A DNA stretch of 21,162 bases. Origin: a virus. The stretch is from the IMG/VR virus record IMGVR_UViG_3300020427_000011, positions 1 to 21,162 of that record, one strand, 5' to 3'. Made by a program: the position numbers and the translations under genes. Positions 454-14,561 of the stretch are shown one piece after another (positions within the stretch are counted from its first letter, which is position 1; the number at the start of each line of letters is the position of its first letter). Below the pieces are notes generated by a model. It saw only the letters and a list, made by a program, of their open reading frames with translations. It searched no databases and had not been told where the DNA came from.

Positions 454-1461
454 TTATCCTATTAAATGATCTACCGGTAATTCGTACCGTAGTGACATTT
501 CTGTTTGAATGGTTTCTAACTCTGTAGTAGCATCATCATACAACTGTCTTCCATTCATCGTTACCCCACCGGGTAATTGCATACCCTCAAACTTGGTAAG
601 ATTTTGTCCCCATTGTTTTTTCATCAATGCAGTATTATATCTCTTAAGAAACATATCACTCCAAATATCGGCATACGTGGCCGGATCAATAATTTTGTCA
701 CACTCAACAACTATCCAATCATCTATACCAGCATCTGCTCCCCATGAAATGTCAAGAAATAATTTATCTTGATGGCGATTATATCTAAACATTGGAGTTC
801 CTGTAAACATTTCATTAAGCATCATTAAACGTTCTTGTGCCATTTGATAATTTACAAGTTGTCCACCTAATTGATGCATCTCCTGCAGAGCAAATTGATA
901 CTTAGAGGAAAACATAGAGTTGGATCTAGAATTATCATAGAAAGGAATAATTCTTCGAACTCCAATAATTGCCTCGGCTATCGATATGTATTTATTGTCA
1001 AAATCCCCTATTGCTGTAGCGGTTGATGCGTGAGTTGTTGCGGTTGCTGAACTAGAATCGCCTGTAATGGTTTCGCCTGTTGAAAAGGTAGTGGTAGTAT
1101 TTGCATAGTATGTATTACCATCTCCACCAGATTTAACTTCTGGATTTTTATATCTTAATGTAGTATTTGCACTATGATATTCATGAACTGTTGCTTGTAC
1201 TTCACTCGTTCCACCAGTAATTTTTTCACCGGCCGTAAAAGTTCCGGTGGGGGCTCCAGCTAGTTTAAGTGTCGAACCTGATATTTGATGTTTTAGAAAT
1301 GTGTTTTCGGTTGCATCAAAATGATATTCTTGAAAAAATTGAAGTGAATCATCAATACAGTCTTCTACTTGGTCATCATCAATATTCAATTCTACTACTG
1401 GCCATCCAAGTTTGCGTTTACAATAATCTTTAAAAGTTGATCTAGTAGTTGGTTGTGTCAT
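454..1461 (-). CDS. 13: T4-like neck protein gp13 with an inserted beta-repeat segment
   Basis: The protein has 335 residues; T4 gp13 has 309. The N-terminus (FKDYCKRKLGWPVVELNIDD, then ..QVEDCIDDSLQFFQEYHFD) and the segment after residue 153 (NKYISIAEAIIGVRRIIPF) are typical of gp13 of marine T4-like phages. gp13 acts with gp14 in the portal-neck complex that closes the filled head. Residues about 61-152 look foreign to the neck fold. They are Ser/Thr/Gly-rich and hold two degenerate copies of an F-x-x-G-E-x-I-T-G motif (near residues 75-83 and 126-134), a repeat type common in phage fibre and baseplate proteins. In simpler homologues as I remember them, KHQI runs almost directly into NKYI. 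The start codon overlaps the upstream stop as ATGA (1458-1461), which suggests translational coupling. Confidence 0.88.
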   Translation of the reverse strand: MTQPTTRSTFKDYCKRKLGWPVVELNIDDDQVEDCIDDSLQFFQEYHFDATENTFLKHQISGSTLKLAGAPTGTFTAGEKITGGTSEVQATVHEYHSANTTLRYKNPEVKSGGDGNTYYANTTTTFSTGETITGDSSSATATTHASTATAIGDFDNKYISIAEAIIGVRRIIPFYDNSRSNSMFSSKYQFALQEMHQLGGQLVNYQMAQERLMMLNEMFTGTPMFRYNRHQDKLFLDISWGADAGIDDWIVVECDKIIDPATYADIWSDMFLKRYNTALMKKQWGQNLTKFEGMQLPGGVTMNGRQLYDDATTELETIQTEMSLRYELPVDHLIG

Positions 1462-1877: not shown

Positions 1878-2441
1878 TCACTTTGTAATTATATAATTTC
1901 CCATAACTAATGTATCAATATTTGTGCCCATAAACGTTTTTAGTGCGTTTTCAGGAGATTCTATTATGGGCTCACCATCAACATTAAATGATGTATTTAA
2001 TAATATGGGAACATTAGTTTTTGTATTCCATTCGGTCAATAACTGAAAAATCGGTTTATTTAACTCTTCAGTTACAGTTTGTATTCTAGCTGAACCGTCT
2101 ACATGAATTACTGCTGGTACTCGACTTTCTTTCTCTGGCAAAATTTGAGCATTAAACAACATATATGGTGAAGAGTTTTTGGGAATATCAAACCAATCGT
2201 GTATATATTCTTCTAACATGATTGGTGCGTAAGGCCGCCAACCTTCCCTATGTTTTACTCTTTCATTAATATAGTCTTTATTATTTTTAATAATTGGATT
2301 TGCTAATATAGATCTATTTCCTAATGCTCTAGGACCAAATTCACTTTTACCTTGAAACCATCCGATTATTTTGTTTTCCAATAAATCTTCAACAATAAGT
2401 TGACACAATTTATTAAAATCTTCGTAACATGTGTAATTCAT
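1878..2441 (-). CDS. Split O-carbamoyltransferase, C-terminal (YrdC-like) half
   Basis: 187 residues matching only the C-terminal domain of the NodU/CmcH/TobZ carbamoyltransferase family. Visible motifs are GWFQGKSEFGPRALGNRSIL (residues 27-46), the K-RE-WRP cluster (63-70), HVDGSAR (113-119) and LLNTSFNVDGEP (147-158). In TobZ the YrdC-like domain makes carbamoyl-adenylate from ATP and carbamoyl phosphate, and the Kae1-like domain transfers the carbamoyl group to a hydroxyl. The Kae1-like half is a separate gene at 3363-4634. This fragment starts with MNYTCYEDF, where the other half stops (..ENYKE), so together they make about 610 residues, close to the usual full length. The start is 2 nt after the upstream stop with no clear ribosome site, which suggests coupling. 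Motifs look intact, so I call it a functional subunit rather than a pseudogene. Confidence 0.9.
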   Translation of the reverse strand: MNYTCYEDFNKLCQLIVEDLLENKIIGWFQGKSEFGPRALGNRSILANPIIKNNKDYINERVKHREGWRPYAPIMLEEYIHDWFDIPKNSSPYMLFNAQILPEKESRVPAVIHVDGSARIQTVTEELNKPIFQLLTEWNTKTNVPILLNTSFNVDGEPIIESPENALKTFMGTNIDTLVMGNYIITK

Positions 2442-2443
2442 TA

Positions 2444-3361
2444 TTAGTTCACTTGAGGTAATGTTTCTCCCATGACATTTCGTGGAGAAATGACGGGCCG
2501 ATTGTCACGCATAGGTTGCATCTCTGCTGGGTGAAAATTCCAAAATATAACTTGAGAAAGTCTTTTTATATCTATTAATTCTTTAATATCAAACAAAGCT
2601 GAATGAAACATTCCGCCCATATAAGATACCATTTGATTATATTTACCAGTAGACTCCCACAACAATTCCCATTCAGCATTATTTGCTAATATACATTCAT
2701 CATACTTTGGGCTCATGTCAGAATTTTTTAGTACTTCTTTTTTCATCTGCATTGTTGAATTATCAATGGGAGCTCCACCTTTTTTCTCACAATCAGTTAT
2801 CCAATCCGACTGTAAATCATCTTGAGGATAACCGACTAAATCAGATTTTCTGTGTCTATATATGCCTGTACCATTAGTTTCTAATTCATCATCCTTATTT
2901 AAATAAATTATAGAAGTAATAAGAGAAGGATCTGAATGTGGAGTATAAGATTCTTTTCTTTGTTCCTTTGTCACGCCATATTCTTTATCATTGTGAATAA
3001 CATTTACACAAAACTGATTATTATTAGTTGTTGTGTCGTATGATATCATATCCGTCATTTCTAATTTATGTAATAATAACATAGCTAATGTATTTAAAAA
3101 ATTCTCGTTTCCTATAAAATTATCAATCGTTACTCTATTACCATAATATTTTTCATAATTACAATTTGCGAGTGGTATAGGTAATGTATTTACAAAATCG
3201 TATATTCTATCTGGGTTTTTATATACATTATCTATAATAACAACCGGATATTTCCCCTCTCGATAACCTCCACCATGAGGATCTTCCCCACCAATCATTT
3301 CAACGCGAACAGTCATTTCTGAACCTAATTCGAACATTGATTCATTATCATAAAATTCCAT
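2444..3361 (-). CDS. DUF6445-like putative 2OG/Fe(II) oxygenase, lying between the carbamoyltransferase halves
   Basis: 305 residues resembling the DUF6445 family, which has a 2-oxoglutarate/Fe(II) dioxygenase-like core. The likely iron triad is H142-x-D144 in YTPHSDPSLITSIIYLN, then distal H253 in MGGMFHSALFD; R267, in DIKRLSQ, may bind 2-oxoglutarate. A GTGIYRH strand (165-170) matches the Gly-rich stretch that follows HxD in such enzymes. Residues 38-63 (YPVVIIDNVYKNPDRIYDFV) form the N-terminal strand-helix usual in these proteins. The substrate is unknown. The start has an AAGGA ribosome site, sits 1 nt after the stop of the N-terminal carbamoyltransferase half, and the gene ends 2 nt before the C-terminal half. 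Placement inside a split carbamoyltransferase suggests co-translation and perhaps a shared substrate. Confidence 0.75.
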   Translation of the reverse strand: MEFYDNESMFELGSEMTVRVEMIGGEDPHGGGYREGKYPVVIIDNVYKNPDRIYDFVNTLPIPLANCNYEKYYGNRVTIDNFIGNENFLNTLAMLLLHKLEMTDMISYDTTTNNNQFCVNVIHNDKEYGVTKEQRKESYTPHSDPSLITSIIYLNKDDELETNGTGIYRHRKSDLVGYPQDDLQSDWITDCEKKGGAPIDNSTMQMKKEVLKNSDMSPKYDECILANNAEWELLWESTGKYNQMVSYMGGMFHSALFDIKELIDIKRLSQVIFWNFHPAEMQPMRDNRPVISPRNVMGETLPQVN

Positions 3362-3362
3362 T

Positions 3363-4634
3363 TTATTCCTTATAATTTTCTAAACAAGTTTTTATATATT
3401 CATCACTATATGAACCACCTAAACATCCTTGATTCAAAGGCAATACTAAATCTTCTTCCATCTGTGAGGCGGCCCATGATGCTGCCCCAAAACTTAAGCC
3501 GTCATCATTAGGAGCAGTATTCACATGAACATCTTCATATATACCTTCAGAAATAATTTTAGAATTGGCTAATATATTTAACGCGCAACCTCCACCAAGA
3601 CATAATTTTTCCTTTTTAAATTCTTTAGGTATATTTTTTAATAATAAAAGTAAATATTTTTCAAAATTGTATTGTAACCAATCCGCCAAATCTTCTGGTA
3701 AATAGTCTTTACTATTTTGTATTATGTGTATTTTAGTGTCCTTGATAACCTTAATAATAGGAAAATCATCCTCATCAAAAATCAACTCATAGATATCTGG
3801 AGCATCTATATTTTCATGATTGCCGTATGCCGACAATCCCATAATTTTACCTGGATAAGTTTCTCGCAATTTTGGATTGTCATATATATCATCTTCAATA
3901 TTACTTTTATAATTAGTTATATCAACAAAATCAGAGAATGAATGTATATTCAATACCTTTTTCATAATTTGAGTATAATTTTCAGTAACTTGATCTACAT
4001 CCTCTTCAGACGGAATCACCCCATTGACTTTCATCTCATATATCATTATAGAATATTCTGAATAGACTCCCCCAAATGAATTTGTTCCCGCTTCGTTTAT
4101 ATAAGTATTGTGAATATTAGTAAGTGTTTTATCTTTTATACGTGAAGCATTATAGAAAGAAGTATTATTTAACTTAGGAGCATCCCATTGTTGGTCTGGA
4201 TGAAAATCACCGGCTCCATCAAATGTAAAAACATTGGCCTCTTCAAATTCTGATGTTAAGAAAGAGGCTGCTGCGTGAGCTACATGATGATCAACAGTTA
4301 TTATACGTGCATTGGGAAATAATTGTTTTAATCTTGTTGTTAAATATCCACGTAATTTTAATGCATAACACAATAATACCGCTCCCGAAACGTATGCTAC
4401 CACATCAACATCTTCATTTGTTAAATCATTATCTGTCAGAATTTTTTCTATTGCATTTTCAGGATAACGGCCATCATATTTAATTCTTGTCAGTCGTTCT
4501 TCAGATAATGCATTCTTTAATTCACCATCAATAAATAACGTAGCGCCTGATCCGTGAACCCAATAATCCACATCATTAATCATGCTCCAATTACCATCCC
4601 ATCCAACAGCTCCCGCTATTCCTAATATATTCAC
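3363..4634 (-). CDS. Split O-carbamoyltransferase, N-terminal (Kae1-like) half
   Basis: 423 residues matching the ASKHA/Kae1-like domain of NodU/CmcH/TobZ carbamoyltransferases. Visible motifs in order: SEERLTRIKYDGRYP (44-58), VDHHVAHAAASF (114-125, the metal/substrate His cluster), FTFDGAGD (136-143), KIMGLSAYG (263-271), LCLGGGCALN (344-353) and NTAPNDDGLSFGAA (372-385). This domain moves the carbamoyl group from carbamoyl-adenylate to an acceptor hydroxyl, usually on a sugar, antibiotic or Nod factor. The protein stops right after CLGGSYSDEYIKTCLENYKE, where full-length relatives continue into the YrdC-like domain; that half is encoded at 1878-2441. The start is GTG with GGAG about 8 nt upstream, 3 nt after the previous stop. 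No ORF damage is visible, so the split looks stable. Confidence 0.92.
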   Translation of the reverse strand: MNILGIAGAVGWDGNWSMINDVDYWVHGSGATLFIDGELKNALSEERLTRIKYDGRYPENAIEKILTDNDLTNEDVDVVAYVSGAVLLCYALKLRGYLTTRLKQLFPNARIITVDHHVAHAAASFLTSEFEEANVFTFDGAGDFHPDQQWDAPKLNNTSFYNASRIKDKTLTNIHNTYINEAGTNSFGGVYSEYSIMIYEMKVNGVIPSEEDVDQVTENYTQIMKKVLNIHSFSDFVDITNYKSNIEDDIYDNPKLRETYPGKIMGLSAYGNHENIDAPDIYELIFDEDDFPIIKVIKDTKIHIIQNSKDYLPEDLADWLQYNFEKYLLLLLKNIPKEFKKEKLCLGGGCALNILANSKIISEGIYEDVHVNTAPNDDGLSFGAASWAASQMEEDLVLPLNQGCLGGSYSDEYIKTCLENYKE

Positions 4635-5247: not shown

Positions 5248-6489
5248 CTAAGTTACTCTGTTAAATCTTTCTTCTGCATCAATTTCATTTATTGAACTGT
5301 CATAATCTGGAACACCAAATGTTCTTTCACACTCATGACAATCATAACATTGTGACCTACAATTTAAAAGTATTCTATTCAATCTTTTACCCTTTTCAGA
5401 TAACCAAATCTCATCCCGTAAATGCATATCATGATATTTTTGATATCTGTCAACTGTTAAGTTTGCTTCTTCTCTTGTTGGTACAAGTACTAACCATTGA
5501 TCAAAAGGAATGGCATTTGTTTCATAAACACTACTAAAAGATGATGCAGTTAAAGGACCAAACTGTCTCATCAATTTTACATTCTGATTTTTAATGTCCT
5601 CCTCTGAATATGTATTGTATAACCGACCATCAAATCTACCAGAAGTTTTTAGTATGTCCACTCCTCCCATCTTCTTATCTAAATACTGATCCAACATTTC
5701 TTTATCAGTAGTAACCATGTCAATACCATTTCTTGGTAGCTTGTCCATTTCATCAGATTTCCAATTATTACATGAAAGAGATGAAAGGGCATTGTCACCA
5801 CCCCAATAGTTTGCACCTATAACTGTTGATGCCATATCATGTTCTAATTTAAAAGGACATCTATATAAACATCCTTCTGATACAAGAAGAGAAGTTTTTA
5901 TTGGTCTTGGTTGTCTTTGTACTAATTTATTTATGCGCCGTAACTCTTTGATGTTTCTATTTAATGAACGATCAAGAAGTATTGTGTTATATCCAATTCC
6001 TATTGTATCGGCTACTTGTTGTCCATCAGATATTATATGATTTACAGTATTCTTCCACTTCATCTTAGGACATCGATTTTGTAATTTCATTGTCCTCATC
6101 AAATGTTTGGAAGAGATAGTACAACTTCTTAATCCTTTATCATAATATCCCCCAACCCATTCTACAAACTCATCTTGTAATGCTTGGTCTAAAATTAATT
6201 CATCCGGCCAAACTGTTTGATTTATTGTAAGAGAAACTTCAACTCCAAATTCCTCTTGTATACGGAGAAGATTATCTATGTGTTCATCAGTTGCTTCCTG
6301 TCCCATAGCATTACCAAGAAACTTACGTTGTCTCCTATACGTATAATAAAAGTTTTTGCCAAAGTATATATCTTCTATTTCATCCAAAATAGATTTTGGA
6401 GTATTCTTAAAAATTAGATAATAATGATTTGGACAATTTTCCATATCTTTTTCAGGATGTGCAATCGAAAATCTTTTTGTAAAATCCAT
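5248..6489 (-). CDS. Peptidase-U32-like (UbiU/UbiV/TrhP-type) TIM-barrel Fe-S protein
   Basis: 413 residues. The fold clues are U32-like: VEVSLTIN (83-90), a lone YYDKGLRSCTISS strand (115-127), GYNTILLDRSLNRNIKELRR (166-185), SEGCLYRCPFKLEHD (204-218), and GVDILKTSGRFDGR (276-289), which parallels the LKIEGR motif of U32 proteins. C207, C211 and C240 fall where U32/UbiU-UbiV relatives bind an iron-sulfur cluster. A second group, C377-x3-C-x2-C-x2-C387, closes the protein and could hold another cluster. Characterised relatives act as O2-independent hydroxylases (UbiU/UbiV, TrhP, RlhA), so a hydroxylation role is possible but unproved. Classical radical-SAM CX3CX2C appears only at the far C-terminus, so I do not call it radical SAM. 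The ATG overlaps the previous stop by 1 nt and has a good AAGGAG site. Confidence 0.62.
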   Translation of the reverse strand: MDFTKRFSIAHPEKDMENCPNHYYLIFKNTPKSILDEIEDIYFGKNFYYTYRRQRKFLGNAMGQEATDEHIDNLLRIQEEFGVEVSLTINQTVWPDELILDQALQDEFVEWVGGYYDKGLRSCTISSKHLMRTMKLQNRCPKMKWKNTVNHIISDGQQVADTIGIGYNTILLDRSLNRNIKELRRINKLVQRQPRPIKTSLLVSEGCLYRCPFKLEHDMASTVIGANYWGGDNALSSLSCNNWKSDEMDKLPRNGIDMVTTDKEMLDQYLDKKMGGVDILKTSGRFDGRLYNTYSEEDIKNQNVKLMRQFGPLTASSFSSVYETNAIPFDQWLVLVPTREEANLTVDRYQKYHDMHLRDEIWLSEKGKRLNRILLNCRSQCYDCHECERTFGVPDYDSSINEIDAEERFNRVT

Positions 6490-7391
6490 TATTCTCCTTG
6501 AATATACTTCATATATGTTTCAATAGGTAAAATAGTAGGGGCGCCTTTTAACCAATTATCTTTTTCTTGTTGTATTTTAGGATCATCTGTACGCCAAACG
6601 ATATTGTTATTTAAAAATTCGTATAAGATTATATGATTCCATCTAAGATCGTTGTCATCGACCATGTGAATTAGTTCTTGAGTAAACTGTGTAGTTACAT
6701 CAGCAAAATATATATTTTGAATAATACGATAATTTTCTCTTTCCTTTTGTCTCTTAAAATCTACTGCATGATGAAACTGTCCATTGAACATAATAAAAGT
6801 ATTGGGCTCCCCATCTGTATGATATACTTCAGTATAATATTTATCTAAATAATTTTCATAATCTTGAGAGGTTTCAGGTTTTCCACTAGGAACACTAGTT
6901 AAGTTTGGTAACTCCTCTCCGTTATATTGATAAAATGATGTTCCACATCCGCCAGACAAATAAATTTGGCCGTTTACAAAATCGTCGCGATGTGGGGGAA
7001 CACAATTATTAGTTTCTTGTTCAGCTTTTTCGAATATTTCAGGAGTTATTATAGTAAATATTCCTAAAGAATCTAAGTTATTAGTGGTAGGCGGAAAAGG
7101 CATTGCCGTTTCCCTTACAATCTTCCTACCTACTTGAGTAGAAATATACTCTAACATACAATCATCAATATTAGCAATAGGAGCAAACGCTCTTATTATA
7201 TTTTGCATTTGAATTATACTTTTATGATCAGTATAATTACAAGATTCTACGTATGTAAGAACATCAACTATATTTTCATAATAATTTTCTACTTCAACAA
7301 TCCAATTATCATTATCAAAATATTCAATATAAAGATCTTCTTCTGTATAAGAAGTTTTAAATATTTCAGAAAGATCATGTATTGTAATCAT
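6489..7391 (-). CDS. Second DUF6445/2OG-Fe(II) oxygenase-like protein
   Basis: 300 residues with a putative 2OG/Fe(II) core: VPPHRDDF (131-138; H134-x-D136), a GQIYLSGGCGTSFYQY strand pair (141-156), then FIMFNGQFHHAVDF (199-212; distal H207 or H208) and R222 as a possible 2-oxoglutarate ligand. The layout, HxD followed by a G-T-x-F/Y strand then N/G-x-FHxAxDF, is like the 305-residue DUF6445-like protein at 2444-3361, though the sequences are far apart. The acidic N-terminus and the last ~70 residues are not recognised. It overlaps the GT9-like gene upstream by 4 nt (ATGA) and the U32-like gene downstream by 1 nt, placing it in a coupled series. The substrate is unknown. Confidence 0.65.
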   Translation of the reverse strand: MITIHDLSEIFKTSYTEEDLYIEYFDNDNWIVEVENYYENIVDVLTYVESCNYTDHKSIIQMQNIIRAFAPIANIDDCMLEYISTQVGRKIVRETAMPFPPTTNNLDSLGIFTIITPEIFEKAEQETNNCVPPHRDDFVNGQIYLSGGCGTSFYQYNGEELPNLTSVPSGKPETSQDYENYLDKYYTEVYHTDGEPNTFIMFNGQFHHAVDFKRQKERENYRIIQNIYFADVTTQFTQELIHMVDDNDLRWNHIILYEFLNNNIVWRTDDPKIQQEKDNWLKGAPTILPIETYMKYIQGE

Positions 7392-8218
7392 ACGTTTTCC
7401 ATTGTATCAAAAATTATATCAGGCGAAATATCATTACACATATCATTACTACATGATAAATTTATTTGAAAATCGTACCCTATCCTTTTGTGATTTTGTT
7501 GAGTTTCATTCCACAATACAATAACTTTGTTGTTGTTAGTAGTAGCCGCTAAATGCATCAATGCGGAATCTATACATACTATAAATTTGGCTCCATCTAT
7601 CAAAGGTATTATGTCTAATACCCCCTCTTCATCTTTTGATGTATATGTTATTGCTGCAGAAGGTTTATATTGATCATCACGCCGTAAACATATAACATCT
7701 AATTTCAAATTATTTTTAATTTTATGAACTAATTTTTCCGCCAAATCTGGTCGATAATCTCGTTTACCTATATTGTTTTTGTTATCACCAAAATTTGCAT
7801 CATAATAATTGGGTGCTCCTGAAAATTGTACAATACAATAATCATTTAATAACTCACTACTTAAATATTTATGCGCCTGGCCTATATCCAAATTATGATT
7901 CAAATAAGGTTTATTTATAACGTTTTTGATTCCATAAGCTTGAGCCCAACTTTCTAATACATGTTTATCTTTATATTTCAAGAAGTCAGAAAAATATGGT
8001 TCATGATAAATGATATCATCATATATTGTTAGTTGTTCATTAAATGGAAAATCTCTTAGGGGTTCTATGTGATCTATATTTTTATTATTATAAAACACAA
8101 AAGGCCACGGTGTCATCACAGAAATATTTTCCCCACATTTGACATTTAATTGTTCTATAAGTGATGTCCATATTATATTTTTTCCTAATCCACCAACGAC
8201 AACAAATAAATTTTTCAT
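7388..8218 (-). CDS. GT9 (heptosyltransferase)-like protein, copy A
   Basis: 276 residues resembling family 9 glycosyltransferases (ADP-heptose:LPS heptosyltransferase type, GT-B fold). The C-terminal donor-domain signature is clear: FIVCIDSALMHLAA (212-225), then VIVLWNETQ (232-240) and a Cys pair near 256-261. It is a close paralogue of the next gene upstream (8215-9057), sharing the MKNL.VV.GGLGK start, YDDIIYHEPY and RDYRPDL blocks. In heptosyltransferases the N-terminal loop normally has a conserved G-D, whose Asp is implicated in catalysis; here it is GLGK (11-13), with Lys in that place. Activity may therefore be altered or lost. ATGA overlap with its neighbour on both sides suggests translational coupling. 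No strong ribosome site is visible. Confidence 0.78.
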   Translation of the reverse strand: MKNLFVVVGGLGKNIIWTSLIEQLNVKCGENISVMTPWPFVFYNNKNIDHIEPLRDFPFNEQLTIYDDIIYHEPYFSDFLKYKDKHVLESWAQAYGIKNVINKPYLNHNLDIGQAHKYLSSELLNDYCIVQFSGAPNYYDANFGDNKNNIGKRDYRPDLAEKLVHKIKNNLKLDVICLRRDDQYKPSAAITYTSKDEEGVLDIIPLIDGAKFIVCIDSALMHLAATTNNNKVIVLWNETQQNHKRIGYDFQINLSCSNDMCNDISPDIIFDTMENV

Positions 8219-9057
8219 TTCATAATTTCTAATATCTTATCAAACACTTCATTGGCCGGAGTATCAATACACAGCTCAGTATCACAAAGAATATTTTCTT
8301 GAAAATCATAACCAATTCTATTAGGTGTGGTTTGGTTTGTATTCCAAAGAACAACTGTGGGTTTATCTTTTACATAGGCGGCAAAGTGCATTAGAGCGGA
8401 ATCTATACATATCACAAACTTTGCTTTTATTACTAAAGGTACGATTGCTAATACCCCCGATTCCATTTTAGATCTAAATGTTATAGTGCCTGATGGTCTA
8501 GGTTCATGTTCATATCTAAAACAAACACAATCTAAATTAAAATTGTTTTTTATTTTAGCATTTAATCTTTCTACTAAATCTGGCCTATAATCTCTTGGAC
8601 AAAGCTGGTTTTCACCTTGTCTCCCCATTCCACCAGTAAATTGTATTATATAATAGGGGGTTTCTAATCGTTCACTTAATTCAAAACTCTCATTTCCTGT
8701 TATCTTCAATCCGGAATATACACCGACTGGTGGATTTAATATTGGTCTTGGTGGTACTCTTTCTATACCATAAGCATCTGCCCAATTATCAAGCATGTGC
8801 TGATCTTTTTCTTTTAAATAATCTGATAGATAGGGTTCATGATATATGATTTTATCATATATTTCTAATTGGGGGAAATATCTAAAATCATAAAGAGGTT
8901 CATGATTCTCTATTAAATTGTGTTTATTAAAAAGGAAAGGCCATGGCGACATTACTGAGATTTTGTCAACTCCATCTTTTTTACAAAGACTAGGAATTAA
9001 GGAAGTCCAAAGTACGGCCTTCCCCAATCCTCCCATTACGACATATAAGTTTTTCAT
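8215..9057 (-). CDS. GT9 (heptosyltransferase)-like protein, copy B
   Basis: 280 residues, tandem paralogue of the gene at 7388-8218. Donor-domain features are FVICIDSALMHFAA (214-227), TVVLWNTNQT (234-243), a GYDF turn and C258/C263. Like copy A it begins MKNLYVVMGGLGK, with Lys where canonical GT9 enzymes have the Asp of the G-D loop. Blocks shared with copy A (YHEPYLSDYLK, NWADAYGI, RDYRPDLVERL) spread over the whole length, so this is a gene duplication followed by divergence. No usable Shine-Dalgarno is seen before the ATG, which lies inside the end of the upstream gene (ATGA overlap at 9054-9057). It likely acts on a glycan with copy A, or the pair forms a heteromer; acceptor and donor are not known. 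Confidence 0.8.
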   Translation of the reverse strand: MKNLYVVMGGLGKAVLWTSLIPSLCKKDGVDKISVMSPWPFLFNKHNLIENHEPLYDFRYFPQLEIYDKIIYHEPYLSDYLKEKDQHMLDNWADAYGIERVPPRPILNPPVGVYSGLKITGNESFELSERLETPYYIIQFTGGMGRQGENQLCPRDYRPDLVERLNAKIKNNFNLDCVCFRYEHEPRPSGTITFRSKMESGVLAIVPLVIKAKFVICIDSALMHFAAYVKDKPTVVLWNTNQTTPNRIGYDFQENILCDTELCIDTPANEVFDKILEIMK

Positions 9058-10025
9058 AATATTGAATTTATTTCGTATACTACTTCATCTACAAGAGGCC
9101 AAACATCTTTTCTGGCATTTTCTGGCATGAGACAACATCTTTGATTTAGATCATCTGGAACATAGAAACTTCCTTTATCAATACAAGGCGGTTGACCACA
9201 ATGCCGTATTGCTTCTAAATTTATATTGTGTTCATGTCCATGTGTTTTAGGATTAGAACTACCCCACAACACAATACCTTTTTTATTTGAATGTAATGAT
9301 ACGTGAGCAACAATTGAATCGATAGCAACAAATGTGTCTGTACATTCAAGCAAATATGCAACTTGTCTAATATTAATCATGTCTCTTAAGTCAAAACAAT
9401 TTTCAGCCTGAACATGAAAATCTGGAACTATTCTTGAAGGTTTGTCTTGAGGTGGTTCTTCTTTTGTTCCGACCTGAATAAAATTAGCATTAGGTAATTT
9501 TGTTGTTAACTCATGCCACCATTCATAATTAGGAGTTTTCCCATAAGGAAACTTATAAGGATGTCCCGTATGTAAAACTATAGTCGGCCCTTTAGCTGGT
9601 TGGAAACTTCCAGAAGAAAAGTAGATATCATTATTTAAAAATTCATCTACTAGATGTTTTTCTTCATCAGTTATATTTAAACGGAAGATATCGGGAAATT
9701 TATCTCTATCTAATGTAATATCTAAATTATCAGAAATAATTTCCCAGAAATGTTTTTTTGGGGGATAGAATAAGGTGATGCCGTGTTTTTGAATATCCCA
9801 ATTATAAACTCTATCAAAACGATTTATCGGATATTCAGTTTCAAAGGTGTTTATATAATTATCAAACCACTTTTTATTATATGCAATATTTTTTATTGAA
9901 TTGGTAGATAATAAGGTAATATTATCATCTTTGTATTTACTTCTTAGTGCATCAAATAAAGGGAACAACAGATAAAAATCACCTATACCACAAGAATCGT
10001 GGTAATAATATAAAATATTTTTCAT
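9054..10025 (-). CDS. GT9-like glycosyltransferase, third divergent member
   Basis: 323 residues. The N-terminus CGIGDFYLLFPLFDALR (12-28) carries the G-D loop typical of GT9 enzymes. The middle GPTIVLHTGHPYKFPYG (146-162) and the C-terminal FVAIDSIVAHVSLH (232-245), then GIVLWGSSNP (250-259), match the donor domain. HCGQPPCID and later Cys residues (275-297) form the Cys-rich tail often seen in this family. Unlike copies A and B it keeps the catalytic-loop Asp (D16), so it is the best candidate for an active transferase of the three. It is the first gene of the accessory cassette, 8 nt after the stop of the last chaperone-like gene, with an AT-rich leader and no clear Shine-Dalgarno. Sugar donor and acceptor are unknown. 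Confidence 0.8.
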   Translation of the reverse strand: MKNILYYYHDSCGIGDFYLLFPLFDALRSKYKDDNITLLSTNSIKNIAYNKKWFDNYINTFETEYPINRFDRVYNWDIQKHGITLFYPPKKHFWEIISDNLDITLDRDKFPDIFRLNITDEEKHLVDEFLNNDIYFSSGSFQPAKGPTIVLHTGHPYKFPYGKTPNYEWWHELTTKLPNANFIQVGTKEEPPQDKPSRIVPDFHVQAENCFDLRDMINIRQVAYLLECTDTFVAIDSIVAHVSLHSNKKGIVLWGSSNPKTHGHEHNINLEAIRHCGQPPCIDKGSFYVPDDLNQRCCLMPENARKDVWPLVDEVVYEINSIL

Positions 10026-10033
10026 AAAATAAT

Positions 10034-10483
10034 TTAATCGTCTTTAGATTCTCTCATGAATTGATTTCCTGTTTGCCAATTGCCATCCACATCAACAGAG
10101 TCTTTTTTTCTATATGCTGTTGGATCAGGAGGAAGTGTGGGATCATAAATATCAAAATCAGCAATACGACATGCTAAAGGAGGAATTTCACCTACTTGTT
10201 TCATTATTATAACCCATCCTTCGGGGTTATCAGGCCGATCAACTCCAACTATATCTTCACCCGTACCAGTAAAATTAATATTCTTTTTAGGACCGATAGC
10301 AATATCAACCCATGCTTTCCGATATGCTTTCCAATTCGCAATATCTGTTTCACTAAGCCCCCAGGGGTTATCATCAGCAATGAAAGACCTACTGATTTTC
10401 ATTTCACATCTAGCTATATGCAATAAAAGATGTAAGGTATATCCTTTATCTATTTTCCATTCAACTGCTGCAGGTGTGGCCAT
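10034..10483 (-). CDS. Tail-fibre-assembly-chaperone-like protein, copy 2
   Basis: 149 residues. The core DNPWGLSETDIANWKAYRKA (38-57), followed by W-V-D-I-A and a later NPEGWVII, resembles the small assembly proteins that accompany tail fibres or receptor-binding proteins in many phages, where an x-W-x-x-Y-R-x-A/W-R/V-D-I motif is followed by a P-x-x-W/G-W segment. It is a paralogue of the next gene upstream (10506-10904). Strong AGAGGAG ribosome site 9 nt before ATG; 22-nt gap. Position just after two paralogous putative receptor-binding proteins suggests it helps fold or trimerise them, perhaps one helper per adhesin. Function is inferred from motif and location; no enzyme signature is visible. 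Confidence 0.6.
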   Translation of the reverse strand: MATPAAVEWKIDKGYTLHLLLHIARCEMKISRSFIADDNPWGLSETDIANWKAYRKAWVDIAIGPKKNINFTGTGEDIVGVDRPDNPEGWVIIMKQVGEIPPLACRIADFDIYDPTLPPDPTAYRKKDSVDVDGNWQTGNQFMRESKDD

Positions 10484-10505: not shown

Positions 10506-10904
10506 TTAAGCTACGCCAGATTGATCTTGAGTTTGTGACTCTTGTATTTCCGAATCAGGATCATAGCCATCTATATTAGTCCTAGTTAATACGGGTGGTA
10601 AGTCATCCTCTGCTCGTACAATAAAATCCCATCCATCTGGAACCTCTGGTATGTCTATACCACCTAACATCATGTCATTTTGCATAACGATAGATACGCC
10701 AGATAAATCTGATCTTGCAAGGTCACACCATGCCTTTCGGTAAGCCTTCCAAGAAGTTAATTCTGCTGCGGTGCACCCCCAGGGATTGTCTCCATCCACA
10801 ACGGATTGTGTCATTTCTAATTCCGCTTGGGCCCGAAGCATAAGTTTATATCTTATATCAGACATAAAATTTTTGACACCTTCGTTCTGTGTGTTCTCTG
10901 CCAT
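10506..10904 (-). CDS. Tail-fibre-assembly-chaperone-like protein, copy 1
   Basis: 132 residues sharing with its downstream paralogue the block DNPWG-x(8)-W-KAYRKAW-x-D-x-A (residues 39-63) and a later P-D/E-GW segment (88-91). The N-terminal part (residues 15-35) is helical and rich in charged residues, and the C-terminus is an acidic Gln-rich tail without structure clues. This is the pattern of small tail-fibre assembly or chaperone proteins. It begins after a GGGA-type ribosome site in a 27-nt AT-rich gap. It may serve the Cys/Gly-array proteins encoded immediately upstream. The family call is by motif recall only. Confidence 0.6.
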   Translation of the reverse strand: MAENTQNEGVKNFMSDIRYKLMLRAQAELEMTQSVVDGDNPWGCTAAELTSWKAYRKAWCDLARSDLSGVSIVMQNDMMLGGIDIPEVPDGWDFIVRAEDDLPPVLTRTNIDGYDPDSEIQESQTQDQSGVA

Positions 10905-10931: not shown

Positions 10932-11498
10932 TTAATAGTTTGATTCTTCTTCATAGTATAACCATGAAGTAACTGTAAATCCCGTAGGCACTACTTGAGT
11001 CCAAGATGTAGAACCATGTACTCCTATAGCCGTGCATGTTGCTGAGTATCCCCTTGCTGTACCATATCCGTATCCATAACCGAAACCATATCCATAACCA
11101 AAACCGTATCCATATCCACCTAAACCACAATATCTTGCACAGTAATGAGCACAGTATCTAGCACAGTAATGGGCACAATATCTTGCACATATATGGGGAA
11201 TCCACCCGCAATTCCAAAGGCTTCCTCCTGTAGTTCCACTATCTGCGGCTCCATCAGTACCACTATCTGCGTGTCCTTCTGTACCAAACATATTTGCTGT
11301 TGTTCCAGAACCGGTTGATGTTGCTTGTGTCGAACCAGTCGTTGCTGTTTCTCTAGCTTCTAATAATTTACAAACACCATGTGCCAACCAAGTTTTCCCT
11401 GCAGGAATCGTAGTACTAGCTGCAATCGTGGGTAAGGTTGCACTATTTATAGAGGCTTTGAATACTACACCTTCGCGGTGATCTACTGTTCCTGTCAT
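10932..11498 (-). CDS. Cys-tetrad/Gly-aromatic array protein, copy 2 (putative receptor-binding virion protein)
   Basis: 188 residues, not recognised as a known family. Three parts are visible. Residues 1-96 are Thr/Ser/Ala/Gly-rich, ending in HADSGTDGAADSG and CGWIP. Residues 104-124 form a strict tetrad array with Cys every fourth position and Ala-Arg-Tyr or Ala-His-Tyr between, six Cys in the series. Residues 125-146 alternate Gly with Tyr/Phe. The rest (147-188) ends ..TSWLYYEEE. The Cys/His spacing could bind metal or an Fe-S cluster, or form disulfides; the Gly-aromatic part recalls Gly-rich host-range motifs of T-even adhesins such as gp38, but with a different period. Close paralogue of 11517-12116. 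Location after the tail fibre and before chaperone-like genes favours an adhesin or fibre-tip role, which is inference. A GAGG site 6 nt upstream supports the ATG. Confidence 0.75.
   Translation of the reverse strand: MTGTVDHREGVVFKASINSATLPTIAASTTIPAGKTWLAHGVCKLLEARETATTGSTQATSTGSGTTANMFGTEGHADSGTDGAADSGTTGGSLWNCGWIPHICARYCAHYCARYCAHYCARYCGLGGYGYGFGYGYGFGYGYGYGTARGYSATCTAIGVHGSTSWTQVVPTGFTVTSWLYYEEESNY
11061..11192 (-). repeat. Cys tetrad array (12-bp period) and Gly-aromatic array in copy 2
   Basis: Within the gene at 10932-11498. Bases 11127-11192 encode the tetrad array: 12-bp units giving Cys-Ala-(Arg/His)-Tyr, with Arg and His alternating to give a 24-bp higher period. Bases 11061-11126 encode the Gly-Tyr/Phe dipeptide array with 6-bp units and a Phe roughly every six to eight residues. 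Codons vary between units (tgt/tgc, tat/tac), so the repeat is conserved at protein level more than DNA level. Confidence 0.92.
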
Positions 11499-11516
11499 TT
11501 TTTCCTCATCTTACTG

Positions 11517-12116
11517 TTAACATGTTTCTTCTTCATAGTACAACCATGAAACAACTGAAAATCCACTAGGTACTATCTGTGTCCAAGAACCGGAACCGTT
11601 TACTGCTATAGCTGTACAAGTGGCAGAAAATCCCCTTGCTGATCCATAACCGTATCCATAACCGAAACCATATCCATAACCAAAACCGTATCCGTAACCA
11701 CCTAAACCACAGTATCTAGCACAATAGTGTGCACAATATCTTGCACAATAATGTGAACAATATCTCGCACATATATAAGGTATCCATCCACATTGCCAAA
11801 AACTTCCTCCAGTATTACCACTATCTGCGGCTCCATCAGTACCACCATCTGCATGACTTTCTGTACCAAACATATTTGTAGTAGAAGCGATTCCTGTAGC
11901 TGTTCCTGTTGTAGCAGCTGTTCCAGTAAACTCTTTAGCTTCTACTAATTTACATACCCCTTGTGCAATCCATGTTCTTCCAACGGGAACACTTGATGCA
12001 CTTATACCTGGTAAAGATCCGCTGTTTATAGCAGCCTTAAATATTATCGCAGATGTGGAGGCATCGACTGCACCTGTGCCACCTTCTGTTCCTACTATAC
12101 CGGTAGTTCTTCCCAT
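11517..12116 (-). CDS. Cys-tetrad/Gly-aromatic array protein, copy 1 (putative receptor-binding virion protein)
   Basis: 199 residues, paralogue of the gene immediately downstream. Residues 24-60 (IIFKAAINSGSLPGISASS, then GRTWIAQGVCKLVEA) align closely with copy 2, as do NMFGTESHADGGTDGAADSG (81-100) and W-Q-CGWIP. Cys116, 120, 124, 128, 132 and 136 form the tetrad array, with one unit reading SHY rather than AHY. Residues 137-158 are the Gly-Tyr/Phe array. Extra Cys lie at 55, 109, 167 and 199; Cys199 is the last residue and is absent from copy 2. The N-terminal variable patch (61-80) differs in length and sequence from copy 2, as expected of duplicated host-range proteins. Tandem TAA stops of the upstream gene and a GGAG site fix the start. 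No signal peptide or membrane helix is visible. Function is unknown; virion tip or adhesin is my best inference. Confidence 0.75.
   Translation of the reverse strand: MGRTTGIVGTEGGTGAVDASTSAIIFKAAINSGSLPGISASSVPVGRTWIAQGVCKLVEAKEFTGTAATTGTATGIASTTNMFGTESHADGGTDGAADSGNTGGSFWQCGWIPYICARYCSHYCARYCAHYCARYCGLGGYGYGFGYGYGFGYGYGYGSARGFSATCTAIAVNGSGSWTQIVPSGFSVVSWLYYEEETC
11643..11774 (-). repeat. Cys tetrad array (12-bp period) and Gly-aromatic array in copy 1
   Basis: Same composite array as in the paralogue. Bases 11709-11774 encode the six-Cys tetrad run and bases 11643-11708 the Gly-Tyr/Phe run. Array length is identical in both genes (22 plus 22 codons), which argues for a length-constrained structure rather than a drifting microsatellite. 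Confidence 0.92.
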
Positions 12117-12119
12117 TTA

Positions 12120-12467
12120 TTAACTCCAGTCCTGATCAATATACGAGCAATAGATGTCTACATCACAAGTATCACCTACAGCAAGAGTTAATTCATCCAC
12201 TCCTGAAAGTACGATCCTGTCATTCCAGATAAACGTTTTGTTTGCTCCTATTGCCTGGTCAGAAAGAAGTTCGTAGGCTGTCCCTGATCCATTGTCTACA
12301 TACAAATTAAAAGTTTCAGATGCACCAGCAGTTTCACAAACTACGATACTTAAAACTGTGTATACATGGTCGGCGACTCCATCTATCAGCTTTTTCGCGC
12401 CGCTGTCTGTTGTTGTGGTTACACTTCTTTTCAGGACTTCTGTTCCTGAGCCACTTGGAATTGCCAT
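12120..12467 (-). CDS. Small beta-rich virion protein common beside marine T4-like tail fibres
   Basis: 115 residues beginning MAIPSGSGTEVLKRS, followed by strands HVYTVLSIVVCET, FNLYVDN, IGANKTFIWNDRIVL and a C-terminal CDVDIYCSYIDQDWS. I recognise this as a recurrent small protein of marine T4-like phages, predicted all-beta, encoded beside tail fibres. Its precise place in the virion is not known to me; a fibre or capsid surface role is plausible. It is the first gene after a late promoter box, has a very good AAGGAG ribosome site 8 nt before ATG, and ends 3 nt before the first Cys-array gene with two stop codons in a row. It lacks the Cys array itself but has two Cys near its C-terminus. 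Confidence 0.75.
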   Translation of the reverse strand: MAIPSGSGTEVLKRSVTTTTDSGAKKLIDGVADHVYTVLSIVVCETAGASETFNLYVDNGSGTAYELLSDQAIGANKTFIWNDRIVLSGVDELTLAVGDTCDVDIYCSYIDQDWS

Positions 12468-12500: not shown

Positions 12501-12508
12501 TATTTATA
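12501..12508 (-). promoter_or_regulatory. T4-type late promoter before the host-recognition module
   Basis: Minus-strand reading is TATAAATA, an exact late-promoter box, in the 54-base gap between the tail-fibre stop (12522) and the 115-residue gene (12467). The predicted start near 12495 leaves a leader of about 27 nt that includes the AAGGAG ribosome site. Its intergenic position and orientation, more than the 8-base match alone, make it credible. It should drive the Cys-array and chaperone-like genes and, by read-through, the accessory cassette. Confidence 0.75.
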
Positions 12509-12521
12509 ATGCGGCGAATCG

Positions 12522-14561
12522 TTAAAAGCCAAATACTAATGCAGCATGTGTAGGCTGGGCGATTGCCGCTCCTTTTTTGTTACTAAATTTTCCTGTTACT
12601 ATTAATTCATCTGCTGATTGATCCCATAACATACTTTTTCCGGCTGTATCACCAAAAAGTTGAAGATCATATCCAGTACCATCTACACCAACAGTAATTA
12701 TTCCAGTTTCATCAATTTTCATTCGTTGTGTACCGGCAGTATAGAAATCTAAATCATCATTATCTGCACCGGCTGAAGTTTCTGCTATAACATAAGTATC
12801 TTGGTCTACATCAATAAGTCCACCAAGACCGGCCCAGTTTGATCCACTATATCCTTCAAAAGAACTTGTTGTAGTATTATATCTTATACCACCTTGAATT
12901 GCATGTCCTCTATTAGAAGATGTTCCAACTGGAATAACTATTGTTGATGTTCCTGAAAACTTTGCTACTGCATTCGTAGAATCTTGTGTTACTACAAGTG
13001 GAACTGCGGCGACTGCCGAGGCGTGATCATTCTTAATACTTACTAAAGTTCTTGTTCCGGTGTCAGCTGAATCTGAAGTAAGAGCCATCATTGCACCAGT
13101 AGTTAATCCATCTGCTGATAGATTAATTGCTGTACCGGTAGTCGTTGGATCTACATTAATTTCAACTGTATTTGTTGTTGTCTGTTCTGAATCAATCTCA
13201 AGTGCTGGACCTCCTGCAGCGAGATTTGTGTCAATAAATAATCCTCTTCCTGCGTCTGCTACCAATGCCAAAGCTGTCGCACCTGTTGCTGATGCGTGAT
13301 TCTGAGTTATGCTTGCAATGTTTCTTGTGCCAGTAGAAGATGAATCTGAATCAATTACCAAAGCTGAACCAGTAGTTAGTCCGTCCATTGACATATTAAT
13401 ACCAGTACCAGTAGTAGCGGCATCTGCTGTAATGTCAAAAACTTTTCCTGTCAATACACCTGCATGGGAAACTTCTACTGTTGTTCCACCTGTTCCAACT
13501 GATGCAATTTTTGCTACATTAGTTGTGGTTTGTTCTGAATCAATTTCAAGTGAGTATCCACCTGCCGCAAGATTTGTGTCAATAAATAAACCTCTACCGG
13601 CATCGGCTTGTACTGCAAGAGCAGTTGAGCCTGTTGCTGATGCGTGATTTTGAATTATACTTGCAATACTTCTTGTACCAGTATCAGAAGAATCAGAATC
13701 AACTTTAAAGGCTGTACCTGTAACCAGTCCATCTGCTGATATACTCATAGCTGTAGCAGATGTTGCGGCATCAAAATTAAAATCTACTGCGGTTGTAGTA
13801 GCTTGTTCTGCATCAATTTCAAGTGCTGGGCCGCCTGCTGCTAAATCAGTATTAATGAATATACCTTTACCAGCATCTGCTTGTACAGTAAGTGCTGTTG
13901 CTCCAGTAGCGGATGCGTGATTTTGAATAACTTCTACGATACTTCTTGTACTAGTATCGCCTGAGTTTGAATCAATATAAAGTGCTGACCCAGTAGTAAG
14001 TGCATCAGCTGAAATATCAATAACTTTAGCCGCGGCTACAGAGTCTGCTGCAATATCAAGAACATCTGCGGTAGTTTGACTAGCGGTAATACTTAATGCT
14101 ATTTGATCTACATCTTCTGCGGTAATTGAAACGGCGGGTTTTCCTGCATCGGCTTTTTGTGTTACTCCTAAATGTCCTGTCCAAGTATTTGCCCATAACA
14201 TTGTAGTGTTACCGACATTAAAGGTGACATTGGCATTTGGAATTAAACTGGAATTAATATCTGCAGTAAAAGTTACTTGGTCTGTAGTTGCATCACCAAA
14301 AATAAGATTACCACTTATTGTAGTATCTCCATCAGTTATAACATTTCCATGTACTCTTAAATTCTCTCCTATCACTGCTGATTTTAATACGCCGATACCT
14401 CCTGCGGTGATAATTGAGCCAGTAGTATTACTTGTTGAGTTTGTGGTATCCAAAATCTTCAGGAAATTACTCATTCCGTCAGCTTGGGTCATCACCACAA
14501 CTTCATTTGTCTTGACTCTCCATTGGTCAAAGGTATCTGTTAAGGCGACATTAGCAGTCAT
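12522..14561 (-). CDS. Tail fibre protein with 91-residue repeats
   Basis: 679 residues. The N-terminal part (TDTFDQWRVKTNEVVVMTQ at 8-26, NSTSNTTGSIITAGGIGVLK at 41-60, then IGENLRVHGNV and TMLWANTWTGHLGVTQKADAG) is a signature of marine T4-like phage tail-fibre or virion attachment proteins. The middle holds three full and one partial repeat, each starting S-x-D-x-L-x-T-G and containing IQNHASATG, VQADAG-x-G and LAAGG-x-x-LEID. The C-terminal part (VGTSSNRGHAIQGGIRYNTT, then GLIDVDQDTYVIAE) is a typical terminal structural domain of such fibres. The composition (Ala, Thr, Ser, Asp, Gly; one or no Cys) suits a long trimeric beta fibre. AGGAG lies 9 nt before the ATG. Possible late promoter inside the upstream gene (14663-14670). 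Role: host attachment, inferred. Confidence 0.85.
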   Translation of the reverse strand: MTANVALTDTFDQWRVKTNEVVVMTQADGMSNFLKILDTTNSTSNTTGSIITAGGIGVLKSAVIGENLRVHGNVITDGDTTISGNLIFGDATTDQVTFTADINSSLIPNANVTFNVGNTTMLWANTWTGHLGVTQKADAGKPAVSITAEDVDQIALSITASQTTADVLDIAADSVAAAKVIDISADALTTGSALYIDSNSGDTSTRSIVEVIQNHASATGATALTVQADAGKGIFINTDLAAGGPALEIDAEQATTTAVDFNFDAATSATAMSISADGLVTGTAFKVDSDSSDTGTRSIASIIQNHASATGSTALAVQADAGRGLFIDTNLAAGGYSLEIDSEQTTTNVAKIASVGTGGTTVEVSHAGVLTGKVFDITADAATTGTGINMSMDGLTTGSALVIDSDSSSTGTRNIASITQNHASATGATALALVADAGRGLFIDTNLAAGGPALEIDSEQTTTNTVEINVDPTTTGTAINLSADGLTTGAMMALTSDSADTGTRTLVSIKNDHASAVAAVPLVVTQDSTNAVAKFSGTSTIVIPVGTSSNRGHAIQGGIRYNTTTSSFEGYSGSNWAGLGGLIDVDQDTYVIAETSAGADNDDLDFYTAGTQRMKIDETGIITVGVDGTGYDLQLFGDTAGKSMLWDQSADELIVTGKFSNKKGAAIAQPTHAALVFGF
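12957..14012 (-). repeat. Tail-fibre 91-codon tandem repeats (about 3.5 units)
   Basis: Unit starts are at residues 184, 275, 391 and 482, so spacings are 91, 116 and 91. The 116-residue unit is the standard unit plus about 25 residues (around VGTGGTTVEVSHAGV, 355-369). Core shared blocks are D-x-x-T-R-x-I, QNHASATG, ADAGRGLFI-x-T-x-LAAGG and EID-x-EQ-TT. The last unit is degenerate (NDHASAV). Nucleotide differences are often silent, so the copies are old enough to have drifted but are still selected at protein level. Confidence 0.88.

Follow-up and report, generated by a model that had tools for sequence, protein, structure and literature searches.

Tandem proteins of a probably marine T4-like phage carry a Cys-Ala-Arg/His-Tyr tetrad array within a long insert in a predicted beta domain

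Analysis of a 21,162-base virus contig (IMGVR_UViG_3300020427_000011), whose full length is referred to as the window, revealed two tandem genes at 10932-12116 on the minus strand, as proposed in an initial annotation of the same DNA. The translations of both genes, P0001 and P0002, also bore out six Cys residues at an exact spacing of four residues. In each protein, the Cys tetrad arm is followed by GLG and then by 19 strictly alternating residues, GYGYGFGYGYGFGYGYGYG. The Cys arm of P0002 differs from CARYCAHYCARYCAHYCARYC by a single Ala-to-Ser exchange (CSHY). Other parts of the description needed correction. The alternation of Arg and His at the third tetrad position is found in the window copies (R, H, R, H, R) but is broken in several relatives, and the Gly-Tyr/Phe array, annotated with 22 residues, does alternate strictly but comprises only 19, since the higher figure counts GLG. 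Equal array lengths in the two genes hold for the window pair but not across the family, in which the Cys array has 5, 6, 7 or 8 Cys, changing in whole units, and the Gly-Tyr/Phe array has 19 or 11 residues. The parts of both proteins and the neighboring genes are listed in Table 1.

Table 1. Array proteins of the window, their parts, and adjacent features.
Feature	Position	Strand	Remarks
Array protein 1 (P0002), 199 aa	11517..12116	-	Orthologues in relatives
P0002 N-core, predicted strands 1-2 (aa 24-61)	11934..12047	-	AF2 pLDDT ~70-90; strands 24-32 and 47-57
P0002 Gly/Asp tetrad arm, 5 units (GTES HADG GTDG AADS GNTG)	11808..11867	-	
P0002 variable tip GSFWQCGWIPYI	11772..11807	-	Homogenised in each genome; divergent from genome to genome
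P0002 Cys tetrad arm CARYCSHYCARYCAHYCARYC	11709..11771	-	
P0002 Gly-Tyr/Phe array, 19 aa	11643..11699	-	
P0002 C-core, predicted strands 3-5	11520..11639	-	AF2 pLDDT 70-92
Array protein 2 (P0001), 188 aa	10932..11498	-	
P0001 N-core	11352..11468	-	
P0001 Gly/Asp tetrad arm, 5 units	11226..11285	-	
P0001 variable tip GSLWNCGWIPHI	11190..11225	-	
P0001 Cys tetrad arm CARYCAHYCARYCAHYCARYC	11127..11189	-	
P0001 Gly-Tyr/Phe array	11061..11117	-	
P0001 C-core	10935..11057	-	
T4-late-type promoter box TATAAATA	12501..12508	-	41 nt upstream of 115-aa gene; same place in relatives
115-aa conserved small protein, first gene of putative array operon	12120..12467	-	Synteny kept in 7 loci (53-72% identical)
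679-aa repetitive fibre/structural protein, upstream	12522..14561	-	PHROG virion structural/baseplate matches
132-aa possible tail/fibre assembly chaperone	10506..10904	-	Weak PF16778 match
149-aa paralogue of the 132-aa protein	10034..10483	-	

Among the other window proteins are a neck protein of T4 type (PF11649) and a DUF4815 protein of 2116 aa, the best isolate relatives of the latter being Pelagibacter phage HTVC008M and cyanophages (~27-36% identity). Together, these proteins point to a T4-like phage that is probably marine. No near DNA match to the window was found among 50,697 phage records. Two further window proteins were recorded. A neck/head-tail adaptor (phrog_211; 454-1461, minus strand) matches tail fibre phrog_693 and phrog_9851 over ~aa 43-164, so that this connector protein contains a fibre-like insertion. 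A 413-aa Cys-containing protein (phrog_1458; 5248-6489, minus strand) has distant relatives in 123 cyanophage records; in both of the records examined, the relative lies close to the tail-fibre region.

Searching viral contigs revealed 11 related loci (L001 to L011). Eight of them are distinct with complete genes, each carrying two or three tandem array-gene copies, and these were used for the family comparison (20 distinct array proteins aligned over 223 columns). All 20 members of the family (window and L001 to L011) combine a five-strand core, Gly tetrads, a tip, Cys tetrads and a Gly-Tyr array. Pfam, PHROG and NCBIfam models gave no match to the array proteins, and tblastn searches of the 50,697 phage records with P0002 and with one member of the distant L166 group described below gave none either. 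The pattern CA[RH]Y matched genome contigs 22 times, in short or low-complexity frames, none of which looked related by translated context; in viral contigs, a looser C-x-x-aromatic pattern found, beyond the family, only unrelated low-complexity frames. A limited text search of the literature found no phage paper with such arrays. The earlier view that the array is undescribed in phage host-recognition modules thus stands, as no counterpart appeared in the libraries and papers searched.

AlphaFold2 (AF2) prediction on the family alignment was confident only at about residues 17-59 and 163-199, which form five strands, and pLDDT was <50 over residues 60-162. In the P0002 model, the arrays lie in an insert of ~100 residues that separates strand 2 from strand 3 in a small predicted beta domain. 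Prediction of an L166 homologue gave the same strand order and the same insert place. Because the two predictions agree, the arrays would form a long loop of this domain. Fold searches gave no significant match.

The Cys array was kept in 20 distinct proteins on 8 contigs, and 107 of 107 tetrads start with Cys. Position 2 of these tetrads is Ala, Ser or Gly, position 4 is Tyr, Phe or Trp, and position 3 is Arg (58), His (43), Gln (4), Leu (1) or Val (1). Between the window paralogues, 10 of the 21 Cys-array codons differ, with 10 synonymous changes and 1 nonsynonymous change. The array is therefore not a product of chance. Pooled Nei-Gojobori estimates, which are descriptive because the pooled sequence pairs are not independent, gave pN/pS values of 0.37 for the N-core, 0.66 for the linker, 0.12 for the Cys array, 0.06 for the Gly-Tyr array and 0.24 for the C-core, with pS at ~0.6-0.7 in all regions. 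Within the gene, constraint is strongest in the Cys and Gly-Tyr arrays, which are under strong purifying selection. The initial annotation had named random array length and lost Cys in homologues as signs against structural constraint. Half of this was found: length does vary, but it changes by complete tetrads and together with the length of a second array. Cys is never lost inside the family; the distant L166 group lacks the Cys array and has a His-rich stretch in that place.

The second array also has a period of four, lies upstream of the Cys array and has the form G/A-x-D/E-G/S. A mechanical count of Gly:Cys units in the 20 proteins gave 5:5 in ten, 8:8 in three (counting a TACY unit), 6:6 in two, 5:6 in two (the sixth unit begins with Glu), 5:4 in two and 3:4 in one. 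The unit numbers correlate with r = 0.91 over these 20 non-independent proteins. The correlation of lineage means was 0.68-0.98 over six unit definitions for the four independent lineages available, and the observed matching ranked best of 24 permutations under four definitions, 2/24 under one and 4/24 under the strictest (G..[GS]), all definitions having been set after the data were seen. This is a strong hint, not proof, that the near-equal unit numbers of the two arms co-vary. Given equal arm length and the opposition of Asp/Glu to Arg/His at the third position, the arms may pair, which suggests a two-arm stalk; the evidence for it is sequence periodicity, because AF2 confidence in the insert is <50. 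The length of the Gly-Tyr array does not follow that of the arms. A hairpin of the Cys array with the Gly-Tyr array was considered and dropped, as their lengths do not co-vary.

To compare the evolution of core and insert, five diverged genomes with two array copies each were analyzed. The N-core is more alike between orthologues of different genomes (identity, 0.72) than between paralogues within a genome (0.65). The tip shows the reverse, with 0.83 within genomes versus 0.37 between orthologues, an order reached by 2 of 120 permutations. The linker, Gly arm and Cys arm share this reversed order (4/120), and the C-core does not (64/120). The insert has therefore been exchanged or jointly selected between the copies, and the cores stay distinct. 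Such a joint insert would fit two subunits that occupy different seats in one tip and offer a common recognition surface, and a homogenised tip is as expected for a specificity tip. Gene conversion without selection could also account for the pattern.

Among the Gly-Tyr array matches listed were four tandem proteins of a further contig (L166). These proteins keep the core and the Gly-Tyr/Phe array, have neither Cys nor Gly tetrads, and carry at the place of the tetrad arms a stretch rich in His, Asn and Ser that includes HGH and HPH. In a search of 20,924 ORFs with a core-only profile (two cores without insert, Gly-Tyr runs masked), they were the best matches outside the family (E values of 1e-5, 0.0025, 0.0031 and 0.047). 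An independent search agreed in part, with 29% identity between L166 and L009 proteins (E = 3e-7; the alignment includes the Gly-Tyr run). The L166 proteins are distant homologues of the array family. Virion-like phage proteins of ~340-400 aa with long GYGYGYG loops were also observed in L129, L137, L150, L153, L176, L160 and L181. Their likeness consists of GYGYGY runs inserted in phage proteins; by sequence inspection they appear unrelated, with no Cys tetrads and no Phe-punctuated pattern.

In the window, L001, L003, L004 and L006, the box TATAAATA precedes the first operon gene by 39-64 nt; in L001 and L004 it is at -64, and a near match is found at -39. In L009, the box stands 44 nt ahead of the first array gene. 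Since the box is not enriched across the window (6 found, 4.6 expected), its repeated position constitutes the promoter evidence. The array operon comes after the fibre-like gene and a DUF4815/VrlC-like protein. The order in most relatives is fibre-like gene, 115-aa gene, array genes, one or two genes for 118- to 164-aa proteins, GT9 genes and further enzymes. In L009, three array copies lie between connector-type genes with no enzyme cassette beside them on this short fragment. Of 11 members of the family of the 132- and 149-aa proteins, two matched the tail-assembly-chaperone model PF16778, and only weakly (E = 0.027). Kinship of the 115-aa protein with the array family, suspected by eye, failed in profile comparison. 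The late promoter and the neighbors suggest a fibre-tip or adhesin module.

The downstream enzymes are GT9-like, 2OG-Fe(II) oxygenase and carbamoyltransferase proteins, joined in three other loci by a flavin halogenase. In the window, three tandem GT9-like glycosyltransferase genes (323, 280 and 276 aa) occupy 7388-10025 (minus strand). A NodU/Nol-type carbamoyltransferase is split over 1878-4634 (minus strand): a DUF6445 gene (2444-3361) separates its N part (3363-4634, PF02543) from its C part (1878-2441, PF16861). The parts are adjacent in L006 and form a single 561-aa ORF in L241. The flavin-dependent halogenase genes (PF04820, E values of 1e-66 to 3e-106) are located at L007:6360-7970, L008:10301-11866 and L166:1794-3473, close to array or Gly-Tyr proteins.

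We favor, at a probability of about 0.55, a reading in which P0001 and P0002 are late-expressed, fibre-tip or adhesin-like subunits whose paired-arm stalk presents a variable tip, and in which we infer the arm pairing, the receptor contact, the oligomer and the role of Cys. A small five-strand beta domain would have grown its strand 2-3 loop to ~100 residues. The loop would run outward on the Gly/Asp tetrad arm, turn at the short, aromatic, fast-evolving tip, return along the Cys-Ala-Arg/His-Tyr arm of near-equal unit number and reach the core again through the Gly-Tyr strand. Pairing of Asp/Glu with Arg/His and of Gly with large residues would make a stiff stalk, on which the tip would be presented to the receptor on the host. 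This stalk may be stabilized by the Cys ladder, through cross-strand or cross-chain disulfides formed after release or through bound metal. The earlier proposal that the array is structural, under constraint and part of a host-recognition module is supported by the late-type promoter, the fibre-gene neighborhood, the weak chaperone signal, purifying selection and the concerted tip. More tentatively, and with the doubts outweighing the support, the matched Gly-x-Asp-Gly and Cys-Ala-Arg/His-Tyr ladders may constitute an undescribed architecture, a modular needle of adjustable length that has a spine of thiols or metal, displays a swappable host-recognition tip and is inserted in a beta domain as one unit.

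The initial annotation had suggested metal or Fe-S binding or stacked disulfides in a trimeric tip. The Cys ladder may use metal or disulfides, and each has been considered as an explanation in its own right. A trimer with inward Cys (and His) ladders might bind metal ions in a row (Fe, Zn or Cu(I)), which would stiffen the tip and may also serve in mimicry of host iron uptake, an idea put forward for HxH fibres. HxH iron motifs have been described in the fibres of marine phages (PMC11705849), Cys retention in the family is absolute, and the His-rich stretch with HGH and HPH in the only Cys-less distant relative gives a slight lean to metal. HxH is, however, absent from the window proteins, Arg occupies the third position as often as His, the trimer is an assumption, and the PDB sequence search gave no metalloprotein match; we regard such a needle as rather improbable. 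A stalk locked by disulfides, in which thiols reduced in the host cytoplasm zip between arms or chains after lysis in oxic water, is no more than an outside candidate of similar standing. The regular Cys ladder in an extracellularly exposed element is consistent with it, and bovine ultralong CDR H3 likewise combines Gly-Tyr-rich germline segments with Cys, in a stalk and knob (PMC7366855). Because the partner Gly/Asp arm has no Cys, we lean against intra-arm disulfides, and only bonds between chains or within one strand would be left; the L166 relatives, moreover, lack Cys at that place.

That the insert is instead a chemically modified adhesive is unlikely. Its Tyr, Trp or Ser/Thr residues would be substrates of the neighboring enzymes, namely the GT9 glycosyltransferases, 2OG-Fe(II) oxygenases, flavin halogenase and carbamoyltransferase. 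A GT9-like gene does lie downstream of array or assembly genes in the window group, L006 to L008 and L166, and the halogenase is found in L007, L008 and L166. Marine virus AG-345-L05, however, has a comparable cassette (GT9, carbamoyltransferase, 2OG) beside unrelated, array-less proteins; the cassette is therefore not array specific, and this control weakened the case for its enzymes as array-specific modifiers. Halogenase and oxygenase genes are also widespread in cyanophages (PMC2984593), and the L009 fragment has arrays without an adjoining cassette.

A soluble, nonvirion metallothionein-like or copper-storing protein for host takeover is very improbable. The CxxxC spacing along a segment recalls Csp1/Csp3, copper storage proteins in which Cys residues line four-helix bundles (PMC5171941, PMC5519932), but the array proteins have a Gly-rich insert with a Cys-free partner arm, a T4-late promoter and a position in the fibre block, and the confident part of the AF2 model is beta, with the array region at pLDDT <50. 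Neutral low-complexity expansion by replication slippage, with no structural role, can hardly be credited. In its favor, the DNA is recognizably tandemly repeated and varies in unit number. Against it, the arrays change in whole units with both arms in step, synonymous sites are near saturation with amino acids fixed, and pN/pS in the arrays is below that of the cores.

If the favored reading of a paired-arm stalk is true, phages likely infecting marine bacteria would possess a compact stalk of tunable length, made of two tetrad repeats that match each other and bearing a variable tip. The family would provide a natural length experiment (5, 6 and 8 units) and a clear structure target, and a Cys-based type would be added to the His-based metal needles of marine phage-iron work. 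The array proteins may also provide a setting for the halogenase and oxygenase genes that marine T4-like phages carry and that are so far unexplained.

Adhesins of the T2/S16 gp38 type are small proteins encoded after the fibre gene, in which conserved Gly-rich segments scaffold variable receptor loops. The array proteins share this organization (a place next to fibre genes, a conserved scaffold, a variable tip), not descent: their repeats have periods of 4 and 2 rather than GGX polyglycine-II, they carry a Cys ladder, and there is no profile match. The T4 gp37 needle and other HxH tips, including that of Alteromonas phage R22Y, likewise present periodic potential metal ligands in an elongated fibre-tip element, and as a precedent gp37 holds in this functional sense. 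It does not extend to sequence or fold, as P0001 and P0002 have no HxH, are small and tandem rather than a long fibre and would use Cys with Arg/His as ligands; a profile search of PDB sequences yielded nothing credible, and Foldseek, run with a low-confidence model, found nothing. Bovine ultralong CDR H3, with its stalk and knob (PMC7366855), resembles the insert as a beta-sandwich loop turned into a stalk, with Gly-Tyr alternation, a Cys-rich distal part and a variable binding end. This is analogy only: Cys lies in the diverse knob of CDR H3 and in a strict one-arm ladder here, and no Pfam or fold match to an immunoglobulin V domain was obtained. In their working, the array proteins are thus somewhat analogous to gp37 needles, gp38 adhesins and CDR H3, and they tested as a member of none; new here are the position of the insert, the matched Gly/Asp arm, the tip homogenised within genomes and the L166 homologue.
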